Shown here in pieces: positions 56,146 through 56,975 of a stretch of 64,000 nucleotides of DNA. The stretch comes from Candidatus Krumholzibacteriota bacterium. Lineage in GTDB: Bacteria > Krumholzibacteriota > Krumholzibacteriia > Krumholzibacteriales > Krumholzibacteriaceae. The stretch covers positions 1 to 64,000 of the forward strand of contig JAUWCL010000003.1 of assembly GCA_030609325.1 (NCBI GenBank), read 5' to 3'. Each line of letters starts with the position of its first letter. Positions within the stretch are counted from its first letter, which is position 1. A model generated the notes under the pieces. The model was not told the DNA's origin. It did not search any database and saw only the letters and a list, made by a program, of their open reading frames with translations. Position numbers and translations under genes: made by a program.

Positions 56146-56462
56146 GATATGCTCCCGTTTGTTTTCGATGGTTTTTCCGGGTCCGCCATCGGGCCCCGGA
56201 AATTCGTCCCTGAGCGGCGCACCCCGGCACCGTAAATCAGGGGTTGATATATTAATACATTCGGGATGCCGTCCCAAGTAAAATACAGCCATTCCCGGAA
56301 AAATCCGGATCGCTGCAGAACCTGAAACCCCGTTTCTTCAGAACGGACAGCCAGCTCAGCCCCGCCTGCGCGGCGTCGAGCACGAGGAACTCGAATCATC
56401 GCCCCTCTCCTTTTCTGAGGCCATATTGTACACCATGCCGGCCGGACATTCGAAAACAACCC

Positions 56463-56491
56463 TTTACAAGATCGCGAATCCCGCGTATACT
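56463..56491 (+). promoter_or_regulatory. Promoter of the TrpR-like gene
   Basis: TTTACA (56463-56468) and TATACT (56486-56491) are exactly 17 bp apart, each 5 of 6 to consensus. The predicted start near 56498 falls inside the dyad that begins at 56492, so a bound protein would block initiation. The leader to the GTG at 56700 would be about 200 nt. Confidence 0.6.
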
Positions 56492-56528
56492 GTTTCTATC
56501 AATAGAAACAGTTTCTATTGATAGAAAC
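56492..56528. promoter_or_regulatory. Perfect 37-bp dyad, probable operator
   Basis: GTTTCTATCAATAGAAAC (56492-56509), a single A (56510), then GTTTCTATTGATAGAAAC (56511-56528). The second is the exact reverse complement of the first, and each is itself an 8-bp inverted repeat around a 2-bp centre; the first extends to 10-bp arms (56490-56511). The two centres are 19 bp apart. The position over the start site of the TrpR-like gene suggests a tandem repressor site. Confidence 0.75.
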
Positions 56529-56699
56529 AAACGCGGTGCCACCTGATATCCAGAACCTTGATATCGGAGTCACATTACCGCTATGGCTCAAAGGGCCGTT
56601 CGCACCCCTCCGGATGATACGGCTCTCCCAGGTCCCGTCATATGCGAGTGCCTGCAGCGGAACGGTGGCTCCGATTTCTCTTCCATGGAGGCCGGAGAG

Positions 56700-56975
56700 G
56701 TGAAAGTAACAGACAGGCTTGTACGGGTCTTCTGCTCCATAGACGATCCGCGGACGATGAAGAAGTTCATGAAGGAGCTCTTCAGCCCCTCCGAGATTGA
56801 GGATATCTCCAAGCGATGGAAGGTCATGGAAATGCTCAAGCGCGGTGTTTCCCAGCGCTCTATCGCCACGAAGCTCGGCGTGAGCCTCTGCAAGATCACC
56901 AGGGGATCGAAGATGCTGAAGACCGGCGGATCTGTAACGAACCGTATTCTCGATGAGCAGACCGCGAGGCGCTGA
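56700..56975 (+). CDS. TrpR-family transcriptional regulator
   Basis: A 91-residue protein starting at GTG 56700, 8 nt after GGAGG. The TrpR fold is clear: helices around DDPRTMKKFMKELFSPSEIEDISKRWKVMEML, then the helix-turn-helix KRGVSQRSIATKLGVSLCKITRGSKMLK, where SQR...LG...ITRGS..LK matches the E. coli Trp repressor closely as recalled. Whether it binds tryptophan cannot be told, and no trp genes are in the window. Earlier starts at 56583 or 56685 lack a ribosome-binding site. The dyad at its promoter suggests self-repression. Its stop lies 11 bp from the end of converging oppF. Confidence 0.85.
   Translation: MKVTDRLVRVFCSIDDPRTMKKFMKELFSPSEIEDISKRWKVMEMLKRGVSQRSIATKLGVSLCKITRGSKMLKTGGSVTNRILDEQTARR

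Follow-up and report, generated by a model that had tools for sequence, protein, structure and literature searches.

A candidate self-regulated TrpR-family promoter with a conserved leader in Candidatus Krumholzibacteriota

The closest described systems belong to the TrpR family or to tryptophan-controlled leaders. TrpR of Escherichia coli and other gammaproteobacteria autoregulates through an operator in its own promoter, the gammaproteobacterial consensus being TGTAcTnGTnnACnAgTACA (PMC9413887), and a survey of regulons in Proteobacteria recorded TrpR as absent from those studied outside the gammaproteobacteria (PMC5343134). HisR (also known as YerC) is a member of the same family and is frequently autoregulated through a short palindromic operator, but this operator has a different consensus (cacTTTAnnnnnnTAAAgtg) and the co-repressor is histidine (PMC9413887). 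In Chlamydia trachomatis, trpRBA forms a TrpR-regulated tryptophan salvage unit (PMC6504234, PMC7755916). The leader RNA rnTrpL of Sinorhizobium meliloti arises upstream of trpE(G) through attenuation that involves a leader peptide; it is controlled by tryptophan and also acts in trans (PMC7298713).

Here we present a trpR-like locus in a 64-kb stretch of DNA (the window) from a MAG that, judged by named relatives, belongs to Candidatus Krumholzibacteriota. Its product shares with E. coli TrpR the Pfam Trp_repressor family, the six-helix fold, Arg54 and Arg84, and putative autoregulation through an operator at its own promoter. It differs in the type of operator (GTTTCTAY-NN-RTAGAAAC rather than TGTAcTnGTnnACnAgTACA), in recognition-helix positions 79–81 (L-C-K rather than I-A-T) and in a score below the NCBIfam TrpR equivalog cut-off; unlike in E. 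coli, no trp biosynthesis gene for it to control was found in the genome. The trpR–trpB units of its relatives resemble the C. trachomatis salvage unit, whereas the lineage of the window appears to have lost trpB as well, and a leader RNA precedes trpR. The likeness of this leader to rnTrpL is one of analogy only: it has no leader peptide, and its transcription is proposed to be controlled by TrpR.

Promoter, dyad and trpR-like gene

The promoter spans positions 56463–56491 (+ strand, as for all features below unless stated) and comprises a −35 box, TTTACA (56463–56468), and a −10 box, TATACT (56486–56491), with a 17-bp spacer. CTTTACA is invariant in the window's genome (G000) and in three relatives that also carry a double site (G001, G002 and G004). 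Two palindromic units of 18 bp follow: unit 1, GTTTCTATCAATAGAAAC (that is, GTTTCTAT-CA-ATAGAAAC; 56492–56509), which spans the expected transcription start, and unit 2, GTTTCTATTGATAGAAAC (56511–56528), which repeats unit 1 in inverted orientation. The symmetry takes in the final T of the −10 box, and as a whole the dyad is a perfect inverted repeat whose arms are 19 bp long (56491–56529). An earlier note on this DNA had described the promoter and a 37-bp double-palindrome dyad behind it, both of which are confirmed; the dyad follows the −10 box with no gap, and the operator likewise abuts the −10 box in relatives from many phyla. That such symmetry exceeds chance also held: 0.03 sites with at most three mismatches were expected from shuffles of the window, two with no mismatch were observed in the actual sequence, and the dyad is conserved in relatives. 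This dyad and its sub-parts are the only inverted repeats in the 64 kb with arms longer than 10 bp, and nothing else in the 2.63-Mb genome comes as close to the dyad as the two units of which it consists.

The gene behind this promoter (56700–56975) starts with GTG and encodes a protein of 91 residues. Its assignment as a TrpR-type repressor is borne out by a Pfam PF01371 (Trp_repressor) score of 67.3 bits (gathering cut-off, 27) and by an AF2 model with six helices (pLDDT 91.9), the top PDB matches of which are E. coli TrpR and TrpR-like (HisR) chains (TM-score by query length approximately 0.75–0.85, probability 1.00, best E value 1.8e-3). The score was below the curated cut-off both for the NCBIfam TrpR equivalog TIGR01321 (55.8 against 67.25 bits) and for HisR/YerC TIGR02531 (30.9 against 42.2 bits), and the operator is also unlike TTTAnnnnnnTAAA. 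The start codon, placed by homology, is probably GTG 56700 and not ATG 56583, at which the earlier open reading frame (ORF) began. The latter is unlikely because homologues begin at the residue of the GTG, the 117 preceding bases show no protein conservation, GGAGG lies upstream of the GTG at 56687–56691, and the 91-residue product has a confident fold. The protein is under purifying selection (dN/dS approximately 0.12). In the G002 bin trpR is present twice, as L019 on contig C82 and as L020 on contig C228; the divergence between these copies (dS 0.72) points either to a MAG that combines two strains or to paralogy.

Operator and co-repressor across phyla

We surveyed 80 named loci that share the recognition helix SLCKITRGSK, 77 of which were usable. 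Counting a site when 12 or more of its 16 positions matched and it lay no more than 150 bp upstream of trpR, we found the operator in 48 of the 77, from approximately 10 phyla, against a background of 0.96% of 2,707 windows; close relatives with long leaders score as misses in this count, the site being approximately 205–220 bp upstream in L019, L021 and L027 and beyond the contig end in L020. At some of the operator-negative loci trpR lies close behind another gene, in an operon-like arrangement. The consensus, GTTTCTAY-NN-RTAGAAAC, sits directly behind the −10 box. All Krumholzibacteriota relatives with the upstream region present carry the operator, including every close-relative orthologue at which, according to the earlier note, a missing dyad would have spoken against its reading. 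Self-repression is supported, with a candidate operator placed over the expected transcription start.

At most operator-bearing loci trpR is followed by trpB, as in G011, G013 and G022, which combine trpR–trpB with a single operator and a short leader; trpR–trpB without trpC in this order is probably a unit for indole salvage. In L054, L056, L057, L066, L072, L093 and L097, which come from several phyla, trpR is followed by a second type of TrpB, approximately 30–33% identical to the common one. An E. coli-type operator with GNACT half-sites was not found here, the consensus being different from that published (PMC9413887), in agreement with the earlier remark that the site is unlike the E. 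coli trp operator. Because it differs from the published consensus of both TrpR and HisR, GTTTCTAY-NN-RTAGAAAC looks like a new operator class. A literature search found no paper describing it, which is no proof that none exists.

Judging by these comparisons, tryptophan is the likely co-repressor. The earlier note had suggested that the regulator may sense something else, and a reassignment to a ligand that is neither tryptophan nor an indole would have a documented precedent in HisR, within the same family (PMC9413887). Also in favour of such a change, two pocket positions differ from E. coli (Thr81 to Lys and Ser88 to Met). However, the shared repressor and operator head trpR–trpB units in many phyla, a linkage that makes another ligand distinctly improbable. 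Arg54 and Arg84, the residues that pack against the indole ring in E. coli TrpR, are also kept, being invariant among 80 homologues, although these were gathered with the pattern CKITRGSK, so that constancy within this motif is in part built in by the search.

Second unit and leader RNA

Unit 2 is a possible second operator or, alternatively, the 3′ arm of an RNA hairpin. On the former reading, two TrpR dimers, 19 bp apart as the earlier note proposed, would cooperate on the double palindrome as a tandem operator, and the leader would be an ordinary 5′ untranslated region. Both units are indeed perfect in the window, and four loci from other phyla (L024, L068, L089 and L095) carry a second, weaker operator 51–55 bp from the first, which indicates that the pairing of sites evolved repeatedly and with differing spacing. 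Across the four double-site genomes, however, the core of unit 1 is matched at 12 of 12 positions throughout, whereas that of unit 2 is matched at 12, 10, 11 and 11, and compensatory changes keep the two units complementary: 94% of cells pair across the units and three pairs have changed on both sides, a level reached by 7 of 500 shuffles. A comparable excess of symmetry within the units was not seen in these four genomes. Inner positions of the two units that are not operator bases covary as complements, which binding of a protein does not need, and the structure of the leader (see below) is conserved. We therefore consider a tandem operator rather unlikely. Since its operator core drifts while its complementarity to unit 1 persists, unit 2 looks more like the 3′ arm, mainly, of a predicted 5′-terminal RNA hairpin (56498–56522; pairing in four of four species) than like a second dimer site. 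With transcription assumed to start approximately 7 nt after the −10 box, ten pairs (columns 7–16) are all kept in the four species.

Near-perfect inverted repeats can have one arm corrected from the other, and with only four sequences available the complementarity between units could be a by-product of palindrome mutation (template switching or arm-from-arm correction) and not of selection for an RNA hairpin. This is a serious but less probable alternative, as mismatches between the units occur only upstream of the assumed start or beside the loop, and the transcribed stem contains U–G wobbles in two species, where correction would yield exact complements. We thus retain the hairpin arm as the preferred reading of unit 2.

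The leader between promoter and trpR, approximately 170 nt long in the four double-site genomes, was overlooked by the earlier note. Its conserved part (model R1; 56529–56685) has no Rfam match and contains four elements that are kept in all four species. Hairpin A (GATATC...GATATC; 56545–56565) has a U–A pair that covaries to C–G in G004. Stem B (56566–56672) pairs GGAGTCAC (56566–56573) with GTGGCTCC (56665–56672), with eight of eight pairs in each of the species. Hairpin D (56592–56626) carries an invariant CGCACCCCT in its loop and a pair covarying from G–C to A–U. Right after stem B lies a terminator-like U-rich tract (56674–56683), with 6–7 T in 10 positions in all four. The consensus fold (alifold) has a z-score of −5.15, and none of 300 column shuffles was as good. 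The evidence comes from four genomes, most of them congeneric, and compensatory pairs are few: hairpins A and D have one each, and the 5′ hairpin has three. Folded alone, the G000 leader is unremarkable (z-score −0.6). When 80 genomes of the phylum were searched with the leader model, it found the four trpR-bearing genomes without trpB and three weak matches in ORFs; the matches in G067 and G077 lie within coding sequence that reads as the beta chain of succinyl-CoA synthetase.

A known riboswitch, T-box or attenuator was rejected, the Rfam 15 covariance models giving only chance-level matches. The leader's CGCGGTGCCACCT resembles a T box in reverse complement, for which no antiterminator partner was seen on that strand. 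A leader peptide with Trp codons was also rejected, as the four leaders share no conserved reading frame. These results bear on whether the leader acts in cis to tune trpR, as an attenuator or riboswitch with stem B and the U-rich tract as terminator, and not in trans. Its placement between promoter and gene, and a U-rich tract that follows stem B near the ribosome-binding site, make this a serious possibility; we lean slightly against it because no clear mutually exclusive antiterminator was found, stem B encloses approximately 90 nt, unlike a classic terminator, and both a match to known elements and a conserved leader peptide are absent.

Loss of trp genes and the proposed switch

TrpC was not found in any genome of the order, nor TrpF in G000, nor TrpB in G000, G001, G002 and G004. 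The latter represent the window's genus and one sister genus and are MAGs, 75–95% complete; a joint absence of trpB from all four by chance is unlikely. The double unit and the conserved leader occur in exactly these four trpR-bearing genomes without trpB. The bacterium would thus no longer be able to make tryptophan, yet retains what appears to be a TrpR-type switch.

The ATPase operon had been named as a possible further target, but this is not supported. The V-ATPase operon runs away from trpR on the opposite strand, and in two of the four genomes, the sisters G001 and G002, an intact tag gene (3-methyladenine DNA glycosylase I) separates operon and operator. Because a remnant of tag also persists at this place in the window (56310–56450, − strand), control of the ATPase genes does not look conserved. 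The Opp operon and trpR run towards each other, and no operator was found at the promoter of either operon. In G000, the only clear operator site found is at trpR's own promoter. One-mismatch matches to the core (two of them conserved in the genus) lie inside ORFs in the contexts that were read, for example in pheT and a methyltransferase gene, and near-matches to the 16-base pattern are as numerous as those to a backwards-pattern control. A weak operator-like site, ATTTCTATTGATAGCATC, is conserved ahead of a HupE-like gene in G000 (C30:36563; L003) and G002 (C118:2040; L141); it is at chance level by the control, yet intergenic in both genomes. As no other convincing intergenic operator was found in G000, the visible outputs of the promoter are the leader RNA and TrpR.

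From the sequence and its conservation, the family and fold of the protein, the covariation and the absence of the trp genes searched for, we infer an autoregulated TrpR-family promoter in which unit 1 is the operator, tryptophan the probable co-repressor, and a structured RNA followed by trpR the product left after trpB loss. We consider this scheme likely. A TrpR dimer, probably tryptophan-bound, would cover the transcription start by occupying unit 1 and would block RNA polymerase, and a fall in tryptophan would open the promoter. The TrpR subgroup with the helix SLCKITRGSK would use GTTTCTAY-NN-RTAGAAAC, usually to control trpR–trpB, in many phyla; in the window's lineage, which would also have lost trpB, the promoter would now yield the structured RNA and then trpR. 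The predicted transcript would present, in order, the 5′-terminal hairpin (from the inverted second operator copy), a folded leader of approximately 160 nt, the long stem with its U-rich tract, and the ribosome-binding site. The earlier interpretation is supported in part; it missed the leader RNA, the apparent loss of trpB and the probable GTG start.

More tentatively, after the loss of trpB the promoter may have been turned over to a regulatory RNA of approximately 185 nt, the orphan, self-repressing TrpR becoming a tryptophan switch for an RNA that acts in trans. This is a proposal that we do not ourselves favour over its negation. The small RNA would carry the 5′-terminal hairpin from the duplicated, inverted operator, and its C-rich stretches would be partly exposed. 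With only leader RNA and TrpR as visible outputs, a regulatory role of the leader is attractive but unproven.

That purifying selection still maintains a repressor whose usual target gene has been lost makes the leader RNA, as the output of the switch, a testable idea. For the TrpR family, the candidate operator would add a further cross-phylum operator code, beyond the gammaproteobacteria, that may be tested directly against the changed residues 79–81.
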